Assembly: GCA_022843945.1 (NCBI GenBank)
Contig: JALHMR010000006.1
Coordinates: 1-64,000, forward strand
Origin: Rhodospirillaceae bacterium
GTDB lineage: Bacteria > Pseudomonadota > Alphaproteobacteria > CACIAM-22H2
DNA: 64,000 nt
Direction of reading: 5' to 3'
Positions 1-4,660 of this stretch are shown here, in pieces. The notes beneath the pieces were generated by a model, which had not been told where the DNA came from, did no database searches, and worked only from the letters and a program-made list of their open reading frames with translations. The position numbers and the translations under genes are program-made. Every line of letters starts with the position of its first letter. Positions within the stretch are counted from its first letter, which is position 1.

Positions 1-297
1 CGGCCGGGTACGCCCGCGTCGCGCATGAAGCCGGTGGCACAAGCGGTCGTGCAGGCGCGGGCCGCCGCCTTGCGGACGGCAGGCGCGGCGGCGCAACGGC
101 GCTTCCTCGCCCGCCAGGTCGGCCGCCTCGCCTCGGTGCTGGTCGAGCGCAGCGGGCGGCGCGGGCACACGGAGAACTTTGCCGCCGTGCGGCTCGACCG
201 GCCGGCCGTGCCGGGCACGCTGGTGGCGACGCGGATCACCGGCATCGACGGCGACACGGCGCTGGGCTCTGTCATTGCCACGGAGCAGGCGGCGTGA
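1..297 (+). CDS. mtaB: tRNA t6A37 methylthiotransferase MtaB, C-terminal end (partial)
   Basis: The frame is open from the window edge, so this is the 3' end of a gene that starts upstream. The visible 98 residues begin with RPGTPASRM, the linker that follows the radical-SAM barrel in MtaB/MiaB enzymes. A helical stretch and a small TRAM-like beta domain follow, containing RGHTENFAAVRL. MtaB is a radical-SAM enzyme that adds a methylthio group to N6-threonylcarbamoyladenosine at position 37 of ANN-decoding tRNAs. The radical-SAM cysteines lie outside the window. The stop codon overlaps the ftsY start by 4 bp, so the two are co-transcribed, and mtaB before ftsY is a common alphaproteobacterial order. 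MiaB is the other possibility, but the tail and the neighbour favour MtaB. Confidence 0.8.
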   Translation, partial: RPGTPASRMKPVAQAVVQARAAALRTAGAAAQRRFLARQVGRLASVLVERSGRRGHTENFAAVRLDRPAVPGTLVATRITGIDGDTALGSVIATEQAA

Positions 298-1217
298 GCT
301 GGTTCAAAAAACTCAAGGACGGATTGAGCAAGTCGTCCGGGCGGCTGGTCGACGGCATCGCGCGCGCCCTGGGCTCGGGCAAGCTCGACGCCGCGACCAT
401 CCAGGAGATCGAGGACGCGCTGATCGGCGCCGATCTCGGGCCGGCGGTGGCCGCCCGGCTGGCCGGCGGGCTGAAGCAGAAGAAATTTCCAGACGGCGTA
501 TCCGGTGACGCGGTGCGCGCCGCCCTGGCCGATGACGTGGCGGCGCTGCTGGCACCGGTGGCGAAGTCTTTCGCGCCGGATCCGGCGAAGCAGCCGCATG
601 TCGTGCTGGTGGTCGGCGTCAACGGCAGCGGCAAGACCACGACCATCGGCAAGCTCGCCCACCGGCTGACGCGCGAGAACCCGGCGCTCAAGCTGCTGCT
701 GGTGGCCGGCGACACGTTTCGGGCTGCCGCCGTCAGTCAGCTCAGGATCTGGGGCGAGCGCACCGGGGCCCCGGTGATCGCCGGCGCGGACGGCGCCGAT
801 GCCGCCGGCCTCGCCTTCGACGCGCTGAGCCGGGCGAAGGCCGAGGGCCTCGACCTGGTGCTCATCGACACCGCCGGCCGGCTGCACAACAAGGCCGACC
901 TGATGGCCGAGCTCGCCAAGATCGTGCGCGTGCTCAAGCGTCTTGATCCAGGGGCGCCGCACGACGTGCTGCTGGTGCTCGACGCCACCACCGGGCAGAA
1001 CGCCATCGCCCAGGTCGAGACCTTCAAGTCGATGGTCGCGGTCAGCGGCCTGGTGCTCACCAAGCTCGATGGCTCGGCGCGCGGCGGCGTGCTGGTCGCG
1101 CTGTCCGAGAAATTCGGGCTGCCGGTGGTCGCGGTCGGCGTCGGCGAGGGCCAGGAGGATCTGCAGCCCTTCGCCCCGCATGATTTTGCCCGCGGCCTGC
1201 TCGGTCTCGACTCCTAG
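294..1217 (+). CDS. ftsY: Signal recognition particle receptor FtsY
   Basis: FtsY is the membrane-associated GTPase that receives ribosome-nascent chain complexes from SRP (Ffh/4.5S RNA) and hands them to SecYEG. The 307-residue protein has an amphipathic N-terminus (MSWFKKLKDGLSKSSGRL) and a helical N domain to about residue 95, followed by the NG GTPase. It carries the P-loop GVNGSGKTTT at 108-117, DTAGR at 182-186, TKLDG at 256-260 and GVGE at 282-285. The long acidic A domain of E. coli FtsY is missing, as is normal in alphaproteobacteria. Translation starts at a GTG that overlaps the mtaB stop, which suggests translational coupling. No gene follows on the same strand for more than 500 bp, so ftsY ends the operon. 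Confidence 0.97.
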   Translation: MSWFKKLKDGLSKSSGRLVDGIARALGSGKLDAATIQEIEDALIGADLGPAVAARLAGGLKQKKFPDGVSGDAVRAALADDVAALLAPVAKSFAPDPAKQPHVVLVVGVNGSGKTTTIGKLAHRLTRENPALKLLLVAGDTFRAAAVSQLRIWGERTGAPVIAGADGADAAGLAFDALSRAKAEGLDLVLIDTAGRLHNKADLMAELAKIVRVLKRLDPGAPHDVLLVLDATTGQNAIAQVETFKSMVAVSGLVLTKLDGSARGGVLVALSEKFGLPVVAVGVGEGQEDLQPFAPHDFARGLLGLDS

Positions 1218-1362: not shown

Positions 1363-1616
1363 CGGTTTTCCGGGGCCCGAGATGGCCGTGACGGGCGCCG
1401 GGACGCGCGACTCTTAGGTCTGGATTCGTAAGACCGCGCGCTGGTAACGGAGGTTAATTTTGCGCGGTTTTCCGCGGTTTTTGGACGCTTCTCGCCAGTC
1501 ACCCCGTCCTCGTCCCTACTAGCGCCGGGAATTGTGCGGGCTCGATTATCAAGACATGGTGGACGGCCCCACGATTAGTGGTGACTACTTGTCAACCCCC
1601 TGTCTATTGATTTTGC

Positions 1617-1646
1617 TTGACAGTTAGGCGGGGCAAATGATGTTCT
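1617..1646 (+). promoter_or_regulatory. Candidate promoter for the micro-ORF transcript
   Basis: A perfect -35 hexamer TTGACA lies at 1617-1622 in the only AT-richer part of the gap. About 18-19 bp downstream is a weak -10 (TGTTCT/GTTCTA). Transcription from here would give a leader of about 125 nt before the ATG at 1780 and end at the hairpin at 1881-1907, a transcript of roughly 260 nt. The -10 is poor, so the exact start is uncertain. Confidence 0.35.
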
Positions 1647-1779
1647 AGTCCTGTTCGGATCGATTTCAGGGAGGGTATTCACATCGTGCGGGATATAGTC
1701 GGCGGCGTTTCTTAGCGTCCCGCTCTCCTCGCGCGCAGCCCTCGACGATCACGGACCATCGGAACCAAGGAGTCACACC

Positions 1780-1827
1780 ATGGCAGCGAAGAAGAAAGCC
1801 AAGAAGAAGGCGAAGAAGAAGATCTAA
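1780..1827 (+). CDS. Lysine/alanine-rich 15-residue micro-protein
   Basis: The ATG is preceded by a strong Shine-Dalgarno (AAGGAG at about 1766-1771, 8 nt upstream). It encodes MAAKKKAKKKAKKKI and ends with TAA. Nine of the 15 residues are lysine, arranged as three KKK triplets separated by single alanines, with no acidic residue. The composition resembles the tails of bacterial histone H1-like proteins, so nucleic-acid or ribosome binding is plausible, but no family can be assigned to so short a chain. It stands alone between a promoter-like region and a strong terminator. The sequence after the stop has no lysine-rich continuation in any frame, so this does not look like a frameshifted longer gene. 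The other possibility is that the transcript is a small RNA and the ORF is incidental. Confidence 0.55.
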   Translation: MAAKKKAKKKAKKKI

Positions 1828-1880
1828 CCGCACTTCGGTGCGTCAGAACTAACAATTCTCTCCTGAGCAACTTTGATGTG

Positions 1881-1913
1881 GCGTTGGACGGTAATCCCGT
1901 CCAACGCTTTTTT
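1881..1913 (+). terminator. Strong intrinsic terminator after the micro-ORF
   Basis: A perfect 11-bp stem, GCGTTGGACGG pairing with CCGTCCAACGC, has a 5-nt loop (TAATC) and is followed by six T residues (1908-1913). The T-tract points to the plus strand and overlaps the stop codon of the convergent membrane-protein gene. Confidence 0.9.
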
Positions 1914-3619
1914 CATGGCGCCCGCGGCAGTTCGTAGAGCACGAGCGCGGGGTAGAGCAGCGGCCAGGCCTTGTCCTCCCAGCGCGCGACGGGGCGCAGG
2001 GTTATCGTCGTCGCCAGTCCGACCGCCGCCACCAGCGCGGCCAGCCGGTCGGGCGGCTCGCTCGCCGGCACCAGCAGAAAGAGGCGCAGGCCGGGCGCCA
2101 GGGCGAGGCGCCGGCGCTGCCGATAATCGGCCAGCGAGCCGTCGGCCTGGCGATCGCGCAGCGTACTCAAGGGCACATAGAGACGCGGGCCCCCGCCGCC
2201 GGCGCGGCGAAAGCTGTTGTAGAGGTGGCTGACCTGGTAGTCCCAGGGGATGAGCACCGCGCCCGCCGGCAGCAGCGCCTCGATCTCGGCCTGCGTCGGC
2301 GCCCAATCCCCCTGCCGGCTGAGATAATACTGCCAGCCCGCGACCCGCCCCGGCTCGCGCAGGCGCGGCGCTTCGCCGATGGCGTGCTGCACGCCGAGCA
2401 GCAGCGCCAGGCCCAGGGCGGGCAGCGCCCACAGCCGGCGCCGCTCGAGGAGCGCCGCCGCCGGCGCGGCGATCAGCCAGCCCGCCCCCAGGCAGAGAAA
2501 CGGCACGAGATAGGCCGAGGTGCGGTCGTACTGGGTGAAGCTCGGCACGGCCACCCCGCAGGCAAAATGGACCAGCGCCAGGATCAACGGGGCGCGGACC
2601 CCGCGCAGCGCCGCCAGCCCCAGCAGGCCGCCCAGGCCCAGCACCAGACCGGCCGGCGTCAAGATCTCGCTCTGCGCCACGAACCACAGCCGGGCGCGCT
2701 CCGGCACCGGCGTTACCGCGGCGCCGATCTCGCCGCCGCTCAGCGCCAGCTTGAGGTAGGCGACGATCCCCTGATCGGCCGAGCCGATATAGTCAGCCTG
2801 CTGCCCCAGCCAGGCCGCCGCCCCCAGCGGCAGCAGCAGCACCAAGGTCCAGAGCACCAGCCCAGCCACCCATTTCAATCGCCGGCCCAGCGGCAGCTGG
2901 TGCGCCGCCAGGATGGTCAGCGCCAGGACGGGCGGCGCGAGCAGCGTGCCGCCGTGATAGGTGAAAATCGTGAGGCTGTAGAGGAGCAGCGTCGCCGCGC
3001 CGGCGCCCCGCACGGCATCCTCGTCCGCGCGGCGCAGGCCGCCCAGCCAGCGCTCGCTCGCCGCGATCATCAGCACCAGCATCAGGATGGCGACGTTGTG
3101 CGGGCCCAGCGCCGAGAACACCCGCAGGAACGAGCTGCCGGCCGCAAAGGCGAAGACCGCGGCCGCGCCAAGCAGCGCCTCGCCGCGCGACCCGTGACGC
3201 CAGCCGATCGCCCAGGCCAGCACCGCCAGCGCCGCGATCGCCAGCGACGAGGCGATGACGCTGATCGTCACCTGCGCCGGCATCGACACGCCGACCGCAA
3301 AGGCCAGCAGCCCGTACCAGGCGAAGGCGCCGAGATCGAGCATGGCGAACGGCACGGCGTAGAGCTGGCGCGCCAGCACATGCAGCGCGCTGCGCTCATC
3401 CGCCTCCAGCGCCGCCCGCCAGCCCTCGCCCGCTTCCTGCCGCGGCAGGAATCGCTCCGCCTCGTGGAAGGCCCGGACCCATTGCGTGAACCAGGCATGG
3501 TCCTGGCGCGGCTCGAGCGAAGCGAACTCGGCGCTGCGCCAGAGCGCCAGCAGCGCCGTGAACCCGACAAGCAGGACGAGCGCGCCGACGGCCGAGCGCG
3601 GCAGGGCGGAAGGTCTCAT
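1913..3619 (-). CDS. Unrecognised polytopic membrane protein (568 aa)
   Basis: I do not recognise this protein. It begins with a hydrophobic segment (residues about 10-28) followed by a hydrophilic loop of roughly 80 residues that includes EPRQDHAWFTQW. Some nine to eleven further hydrophobic segments run to about residue 430. The last 130 residues are soluble and arginine-rich. One N-terminal membrane anchor, a large first periplasmic loop, many membrane spans and a soluble C-terminus is the general plan of GT-C glycosyltransferases, but the diagnostic acidic pair in the first loop is not clear. That reading is inference only. The gene stands alone, convergent with the micro-ORF and divergent from the DMT transporter at 3800. 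Codon use matches its neighbours. Confidence 0.75.
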   Translation of the reverse strand: MRPSALPRSAVGALVLLVGFTALLALWRSAEFASLEPRQDHAWFTQWVRAFHEAERFLPRQEAGEGWRAALEADERSALHVLARQLYAVPFAMLDLGAFAWYGLLAFAVGVSMPAQVTISVIASSLAIAALAVLAWAIGWRHGSRGEALLGAAAVFAFAAGSSFLRVFSALGPHNVAILMLVLMIAASERWLGGLRRADEDAVRGAGAATLLLYSLTIFTYHGGTLLAPPVLALTILAAHQLPLGRRLKWVAGLVLWTLVLLLPLGAAAWLGQQADYIGSADQGIVAYLKLALSGGEIGAAVTPVPERARLWFVAQSEILTPAGLVLGLGGLLGLAALRGVRAPLILALVHFACGVAVPSFTQYDRTSAYLVPFLCLGAGWLIAAPAAALLERRRLWALPALGLALLLGVQHAIGEAPRLREPGRVAGWQYYLSRQGDWAPTQAEIEALLPAGAVLIPWDYQVSHLYNSFRRAGGGGPRLYVPLSTLRDRQADGSLADYRQRRRLALAPGLRLFLLVPASEPPDRLAALVAAVGLATTITLRPVARWEDKAWPLLYPALVLYELPRAP

Positions 3620-3799: not shown

Positions 3800-4660
3800 A
3801 TGAAAATCGATCCGGGCGTCGCCGCCCTCGTCCTGTTCGCCGCCCTGCTCCACGCCAGCTGGAACGCCATCGTCAAATCCGACCGCGACCGCCTGGTCTC
3901 GTTCGGCATCGTCATGATGGCCGGCTGCCTGCTCGCCGTGCCCTTCATTCCCTTCGTCGCCTTCCCCGCCGAGGCGTCGTGGCCCTATCTCGCGGCCTCG
4001 GTGATCGTGCACAATTTCTATTACTACTACCTGCTGCGCGCCTACGCGCATGGCGACCTGAGCCACGTCTATCCCATCGCCCGCGGCCTGGGGCCGCTGC
4101 TGGTGGCGATCTTCTCCGGGCGGCTGGTCGGCGAGTATCTGAGCCTGGCCGAGGCCTGCGGTGTGGGCCTGCTCTCCTTCGGCATCGCCAGCCTCGCCTT
4201 TGGCCACGGCCTGCCGCGCGGCCGGCGCGAATGGCAGGCCGTGTACTACGCCGTCGGCACCGGCGTATTCATCGCCGGCTACACTCTGGCCGACGGGCTG
4301 GGCGTGCGCCACTCCGGCGACGCGCTGGGCTACATCGTCTGGCTCAACCTGCTGGAAGGCCCCTGGGTGCTGGTCCTGGCCTTCTGGCGCCGGGGTGCCG
4401 CCATCTATCCTTACCTGCAGCAGTACTGGTGGCGCGGTGCGGCCGGCGGCTTCATCGCCACGCTGGGCTACGGCATCGCCATCTGGGCGATGAGTGTCGG
4501 GGCGCTGGCCCATGTCGCAGCCCTGCGCGAGACCTCGGTCTTGTTCGCCACGGTGATGGGGGCCGTGCTGCTTCACGAAGGCTTCGGCACGCGGCGCATC
4601 CTGGCCGCGGCGCTGATCGTCGCCGGCCTGCTGCTGATGAACCTGCCGCTGTTCCGCTAG
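3800..4660 (+). CDS. EamA/DMT-family inner-membrane transporter
   Basis: This 286-residue protein has about ten hydrophobic segments in two halves of five, the duplicated EamA architecture of the drug/metabolite transporter superfamily. Typical features are a short N-terminus (residues 1-10) leading into LHASWNAIVK and an end of repeated small hydrophobic residues (VAGLLLMNLPLFR). DMT proteins usually export amino acids, nucleosides or other metabolites; nothing here fixes the substrate. It is a single gene, about 180 bp from the divergent membrane-protein gene and 99 bp before the antiporter gene on the same strand. Confidence 0.88.
   Translation: MKIDPGVAALVLFAALLHASWNAIVKSDRDRLVSFGIVMMAGCLLAVPFIPFVAFPAEASWPYLAASVIVHNFYYYYLLRAYAHGDLSHVYPIARGLGPLLVAIFSGRLVGEYLSLAEACGVGLLSFGIASLAFGHGLPRGRREWQAVYYAVGTGVFIAGYTLADGLGVRHSGDALGYIVWLNLLEGPWVLVLAFWRRGAAIYPYLQQYWWRGAAGGFIATLGYGIAIWAMSVGALAHVAALRETSVLFATVMGAVLLHEGFGTRRILAAALIVAGLLLMNLPLFR

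Follow-up and report, generated by a model that had tools for sequence, protein, structure and literature searches.

A conserved 15-codon, lysine-rich gene downstream of ftsY and its probable role as a minimal H1-like polycation

Can an open reading frame of only 15 codons, most of them for lysine, be a gene in its own right, and what could so small a product do in a bacterial cell? This question is raised by a locus near the start of the window, by which we mean the whole 64,000-nucleotide stretch analyzed here (Rhodospirillaceae bacterium, contig JALHMR010000006.1). The frame opens with an ATG at 1780, 562 nt downstream of ftsY, runs for 15 codons and ends with TAA at 1825–1827. Nine of its 15 residues are lysine by direct reading of the sequence, proline is absent and the charge is about +9. 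The following features were assigned at the locus.

294–1217, plus strand: ftsY (SRP receptor GTPase; Pfam SRP54/SRP54_N and synteny), the upstream neighbor kept in the family
1605–1622, plus strand: UP-like ATTGATTTTG with the -35 box CTTGACA (1616–1622), the most conserved block 5' of the Shine-Dalgarno (SD) sequence, retained also in a genus with a different peptide
1639–1646, plus strand: -10-like GATGTTCT (GATGTT, 1639–1644), kept as GAT(G/C)TTCT in most relatives
1669–1675, plus strand: GGGAGGG element of the early 5'UTR, kept in most family members
1767–1772, plus strand: SD sequence AAGGAG, 7 nt upstream of the ATG
1780–1827, plus strand: 15-codon gene, MAAKKKAKKKAKKKI followed by a stop, with 8/8 variable sites in codons 1–10 of 19 genomes at third positions
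1829–1842, plus strand: small hairpin CGCAC-TTCG-GTGCG directly 3' of the stop codon, read from the sequence
1881–1913, plus strand: intrinsic terminator, an 11-bp perfect stem with T6 (sequence and fold)
1913–3619, minus strand: convergent gene for a 568-aa protein, directly beyond the terminator, without Pfam match
3800–4660, plus strand: EamA-type transporter (Pfam EamA and synteny), the downstream neighbor in much of the family

These assignments bear out the original prediction, which had described nine lysines among the 15 residues, AAGGAG before the frame, a possible promoter upstream, a perfect 11-bp terminator and a transcript of about 260 nt. The promoter corresponds to CTTGACA and GATGTT, both conserved in relatives, with the -10-like element diverged in three of them (G002, G007 and G010), and transcription would start near 1651. 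Together, the promoter and terminator positions predict a transcript of the proposed length. The terminator arms are GCGTTGGACGG (1881–1891) and CCGTCCAACGC (1897–1907), followed by T6 at 1908–1913, and the computed fold contains 12 pairs if a closing G-U is counted. GGGAGGG lies just 3' of the predicted transcription start, and no conserved open reading frame uses it as its SD. Some relatives carry small hairpins similar to the one behind the stop codon, with altered stems. Searching the promoter motif in eight family genomes placed it at the micro-gene locus in 6 and at two other sites, from which no regulon could be defined. The 568-aa minus-strand protein separates the micro-gene from the EamA gene, and a homologue of it was absent from the other family loci compared. 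Within the 64-kb window, the frame is the sole ATG-initiated one of 10–40 codons with at least 30% lysine, and no comparable frame arose under the same criteria in 40 first-order Markov replicas of the window. Among 398 genomes drawn from the phylum, a pattern of SD, MxxxKKxKKK and stop was matched in one only, that of the window itself, and the reversed control gave 0 matches.

The window comes from an uncultured alphaproteobacterium, to whose relatives Tagaea sp. CACIAM 22H2 (L087) belongs. A DNA search recovered the locus in relatives, and the alignment contains three conserved blocks, namely the promoter, the SD and the reading frame, separated by divergent 5'UTR whose middle part falls to 30–46% pairwise identity, the reading frame being the best conserved part. 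Orthologous loci were then fetched with FtsY and not with the peptide, so that no selection on peptide sequence was introduced. From 23 family genomes we obtained 22 loci, 21 of them with enough downstream sequence, and a stand-alone lysine-rich micro-ORF with an SD was present in 21/21, 275–562 nt 3' of ftsY; at the 22nd locus (G001) it was found on another contig. The peptide starts with MAAKKKAKKK in 18 of the 21 loci and reads MPVKKAAAKKPAKKT(V/M)AKKPAAKKTAKKK in the remaining three, all from genus g4. Across codons 1–10 of the 19 MAAKKKAKKK genomes (the 18 FtsY-anchored ones and G001), there were 8 variable sites and all 8 fell at codon position 3 (p = 8e-6). Judged by these comparisons, it is well supported that the frame at 1780–1827 is a genuine protein-coding gene under purifying selection and no chance reading frame. 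The original prediction had proposed a stand-alone, expressed lysine-rich micro-protein that gene callers would overlook, and the third-position changes in a frame kept by its relatives speak for it; the pattern that it had set against a gene, conserved RNA around a frame without synonymous excess, was the opposite of what we found, the frame being kept and the middle 5'UTR divergent.

Genus g4 carries a different peptide, MPVKKAAAKKPAKKTVAKKPAAKKTAKKK, with the promoter (ATATTGAATTTTCTTGACA...GATCTTCT) and the position retained, and its SD is AGGAGGT, compared with (A)AGGAGT in family genomes with the window-type peptide. Because the promoter is kept in front of a different peptide, selection appears to preserve composition and charge over exact sequence. 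The g4 29-mer is of PAKK type and resembles the tails of H1 and HU proteins; it stays below threshold against the HC2 model (15.1 bits, E = 0.026, cut-off 40), and a PDB search with it gave a histone match at chance level only. No full-length H1-like member was found at the FtsY-anchored loci of the window's family. Over about 380 kb of loci from three groups, SD-preceded lysine-rich micro-ORFs occurred only at the expected site, save in G016, a homologue fetched from another family. The sequence comparisons show a coding gene under purifying selection, with its promoter, SD and stand-alone arrangement maintained, a terminator kept as a feature and the lysine-rich composition preserved.

Micro-forms of the window type matched no model in NCBIfam, Pfam or PHROGs, and the window peptide itself matched neither the HC2/H1 models (PF07382, NF038053) nor HU/IHF (PF00216), an HU domain being present only in longer fusions elsewhere. 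Literature searches retrieved no paper in which AKKKAKKK or MAAKKKA appears and, more broadly among small lysine-rich proteins, no description of this gene. Individual micro-form sequences may already be listed in the small-protein catalogue GMSC, in which ORFs are called from 30 nt upward (PMC11364881). In composition, the micro-forms are HC2-like: rich in lysine and alanine (and in part proline), of low complexity and without globular domain. Proline occurs in the variants of genus g4, Terriglobia and Burkholderiales. HC2-type H1-like proteins (PF07382, NF038053; Chlamydia Hc2, Bordetella BpH1) likewise combine lysine and alanine without a folded domain and maintain composition over sequence, and in Burkholderiales their long forms share with micro-forms the locus downstream of lysA. 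In contrast to the 11–30 residues of the micro-forms, they are well over 100 aa long (Chlamydia Hc2 has 165–237 aa; PMC2848022), and the window peptide differs further in its lack of proline and its ftsY-linked stand-alone locus. We therefore liken the micro-form to an H1/HC2 tail; since it matches no HC2 model, it is not a filed HC2 member. The C-terminal KPAA tails of AlgP and PhaF in Pseudomonas are also disordered lysine/alanine repeats, but they follow a folded N-terminal domain, whereas in the window gene the tail is the entire protein. MAAKKKAKKK itself stands at the N-terminus of HU in several gammaproteobacterial MAGs, from which the window peptide differs in having no HU domain.

To find other clades, genome contigs were scanned for MAAKKKAKKK codons with a stop, a search selective for that very sequence and used for this purpose only, and at least 118 loci were returned. 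Many of the matches listed are stand-alone frames of 11–30 codons, as a rule accompanied by an SD and by a hairpin resembling a terminator; they come from Alpha-, Beta-, Gamma- and Deltaproteobacteria, Acidobacteria, Patescibacteria and a few archaeal MAGs; the genomes compared are mostly MAGs. Neighbors are constant inside a clade and differ between clades (ftsY, lysA, rmuC, an NrdJ-type TSCPD protein and LysRS, of which the TSCPD protein and LysRS were identified by eye) and therefore point to no particular pathway. As the scan had selected the sequence, conservation in two further clades was re-examined through neighboring genes. In an order of Terriglobia (Acidobacteria), a version of 11–25 aa facing rmuC was present in 22/30 loci, with peptides such as MAAKKKAKKKR, MPAKKKAKKKR and MAAKKAKPKAKAKAKAKKR, and in the aligned loci the frame stands between a TTGACA-N17-TATACA promoter and a terminator that is likewise strong. 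This promoter is very strong and lies within about 150 nt 5' of the micro-ORF (L211–L240), and the 5'UTR of these loci contains a conserved ACGCGCTCCGCCAG...CTGGCG hairpin.

In Burkholderiales, 13/29 loci contained a Lys/Ala/Pro-rich frame downstream of lysA, of 16–34 aa in seven and 128–212 aa in six. Three of the long forms were scanned; two exceeded the Pfam HC2 cut-off of 40 bits, scoring 66 and 103, and also came close to NCBIfam hist_H1_lk_Burk. A 5'UTR element, GG(G/T)AGTGC, located 60–66 nt 5' of the ATG, is common to 16/19 micro-forms and a 154-aa form and absent from lysA loci lacking the frame (5/13 versus 0/16, p = 0.011). Synteny thus places micro-forms and full H1-like HC2 proteins at one and the same locus, a continuum seen only in this order; the two may be orthologous there, as locus and common 5'UTR element suggest, and the window's family has no full-length form behind ftsY. 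A conserved hairpin-like element, GGGAGTGCAG...CTGTTTGCAC, was observed 60–66 nt before the start codon in L173, L176, L183, L188, L197, L028, L033 and others (97 nt before it in L197), in front of 16-aa and 154-aa products alike. Among the matches listed, long proteins with the same N-terminus include HU (PF00216), DksA and phosphofructokinase; these fusions (L032, L056, L096 and L053) come from gammaproteobacterial MAGs and suggest a portable polycation tail. For sequence of such low complexity homology between phyla is unprovable, and convergent origin is possible.

What, then, could the product do? In the reading that we favor, with some confidence, 1780–1827 is a monocistronic gene for a 15-residue polycation that probably works like a minimal, domain-less H1/HC2-like tail, as a counter-ion or condenser of nucleic acid. 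This reading draws on the syntenic continuum to HC2 in Burkholderiales, on the HU fusions and on the literature on polycation binding: KPAA peptides taken from the tail of AlgP, an H1-like protein, bind DNA in vitro (PMC9239181), and RNA and a K9 peptide together form coacervates (PMC8979813). With a charge of about +9 and no hydrophobic core, the 15-mer should be disordered and diffusible, and a Lys/Ala peptide is expected to bind phosphate backbones non-specifically, in which case nucleoid DNA and/or rRNA would be neutralized or condensed. The peptide would be translated in vivo, presumably at high level, with DNA, rRNA or polyphosphate as its target polyanion. Since H1-like proteins carry many more charges, the 15-mer would have to be present in high copy number. 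Against a nucleic-acid role, the MAAKKKAKKK stretch is also fused to phosphofructokinase, which is no nucleic-acid protein.

Two alternatives place the function in the RNA or in the act of translation, and both are disfavored. If the transcript were mainly a regulatory small RNA with an incidental or merely RNA-stabilizing frame, one would understand its shortness, its conserved early GGGAGGG, the hairpin behind the stop and the conserved 5'UTR elements of Terriglobia and Burkholderiales. The reading frame is, however, the part that is best conserved, with variation at third positions only, and RNAalifold found no consensus structure in the divergent middle 5'UTR of the family alignment. Rfam, too, gave no match in 1200–1950 at E ≤ 1 and none at the gathering threshold. 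A structured RNA was rejected on these two grounds, and we regard the small-RNA explanation as very improbable. A leader peptide whose stalling at lysine codons controls the terminator, and hence the downstream gene, would account for a run of such codons 5' of a terminator, for the same-strand EamA transporter downstream in several relatives and for lysA (Burkholderiales) or a class I lysyl-tRNA synthetase (Micavibrio-like) nearby. Yet the next gene is convergent in the window (1913–3619), which rules out a lysine attenuator there; the downstream gene is convergent in Terriglobia and most Burkholderiales as well, and for most other clades attenuation was rejected on this same ground. Moreover, lysA lies upstream of the micro-gene and not downstream, and the micro-forms grade into proteins of about 200 aa; as a general explanation, attenuation has next to no likelihood.

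The eukaryotic ribosomal protein eL41 has about 25 residues, is extremely basic, is encoded by its own gene, contains arginine and tryptophan, has a fixed sequence and is ribosome-bound. Small size, high basicity and an independent gene are shared with the window peptide, whereas the arginine and tryptophan content, the fixed sequence and the ribosome-bound state are those of eL41. A comparable micro-protein stabilizing rRNA or aiding ribosome assembly would agree with the size and charge, with the high expression suggested by a strong SD and a housekeeping-type promoter, and with the occurrence of polyphosphate-binding bacterial lysine-rich segments in ribosome-biogenesis proteins (PMC12345225). 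Unlike a protein fitted to an rRNA pocket, though, the relatives vary freely in length and proline content; presence is patchy (13/29 in Burkholderiales) and no ribosomal protein genes were recognized among the neighbors inspected, which leaves ribosome association unlikely. A peptide organizing polyphosphate granules or buffering polyphosphate is quite unlikely as well. Lysine stretches bind polyphosphate non-covalently, according to work cited in PMC12345225, and the H1-like AlgP associates with polyphosphate granules and spaces them (PMC9239181). Besides its tail, however, AlgP has a folded N-terminal domain, and the neighbors inspected included no recognizable polyphosphate genes.

If the minimal H1-like tail is the correct reading, such a tail can be a gene by itself at 11–30 residues, under the usual size limits of annotation, which suggests that many genome annotations may miss a class of highly charged micro-proteins. 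With a fixed locus, a promoter that is conserved and length variants that are plentiful in nature, the gene would offer a clean system for the role of a bare polycation in cells, as well as for how linker-histone-like proteins arise or shrink. We put forward only tentatively, with somewhat more doubt than confidence, the wider proposal that stand-alone polycation micro-genes of 11–30 codons are widespread, overlooked chromosomal 'micro-histones' of Alpha-, Beta- and Gammaproteobacteria, Acidobacteria and, by pattern matches, several further lineages of bacteria and archaea, maintained for their charge and composition, driven by strong housekeeping promoters and interconvertible with full H1-like proteins. 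Were this true, few known conserved structural proteins of the chromosome would be as small as the 11-residue form. Two observations may be added. The micro-gene lies 3' of lysA in Burkholderiales (L033, 2651–3895, and other loci) and near a class I LysRS, recognized by eye, in Micavibrio-like genomes (L123), a proximity that may be fortuitous or may reflect a connection with lysine supply. Finally, one Acidobacteria genome (G764) harbors two micro-genes (L036 and L072) in different contexts, encoding MAAKKKAKKKR and MAAKKKAKKKKR.
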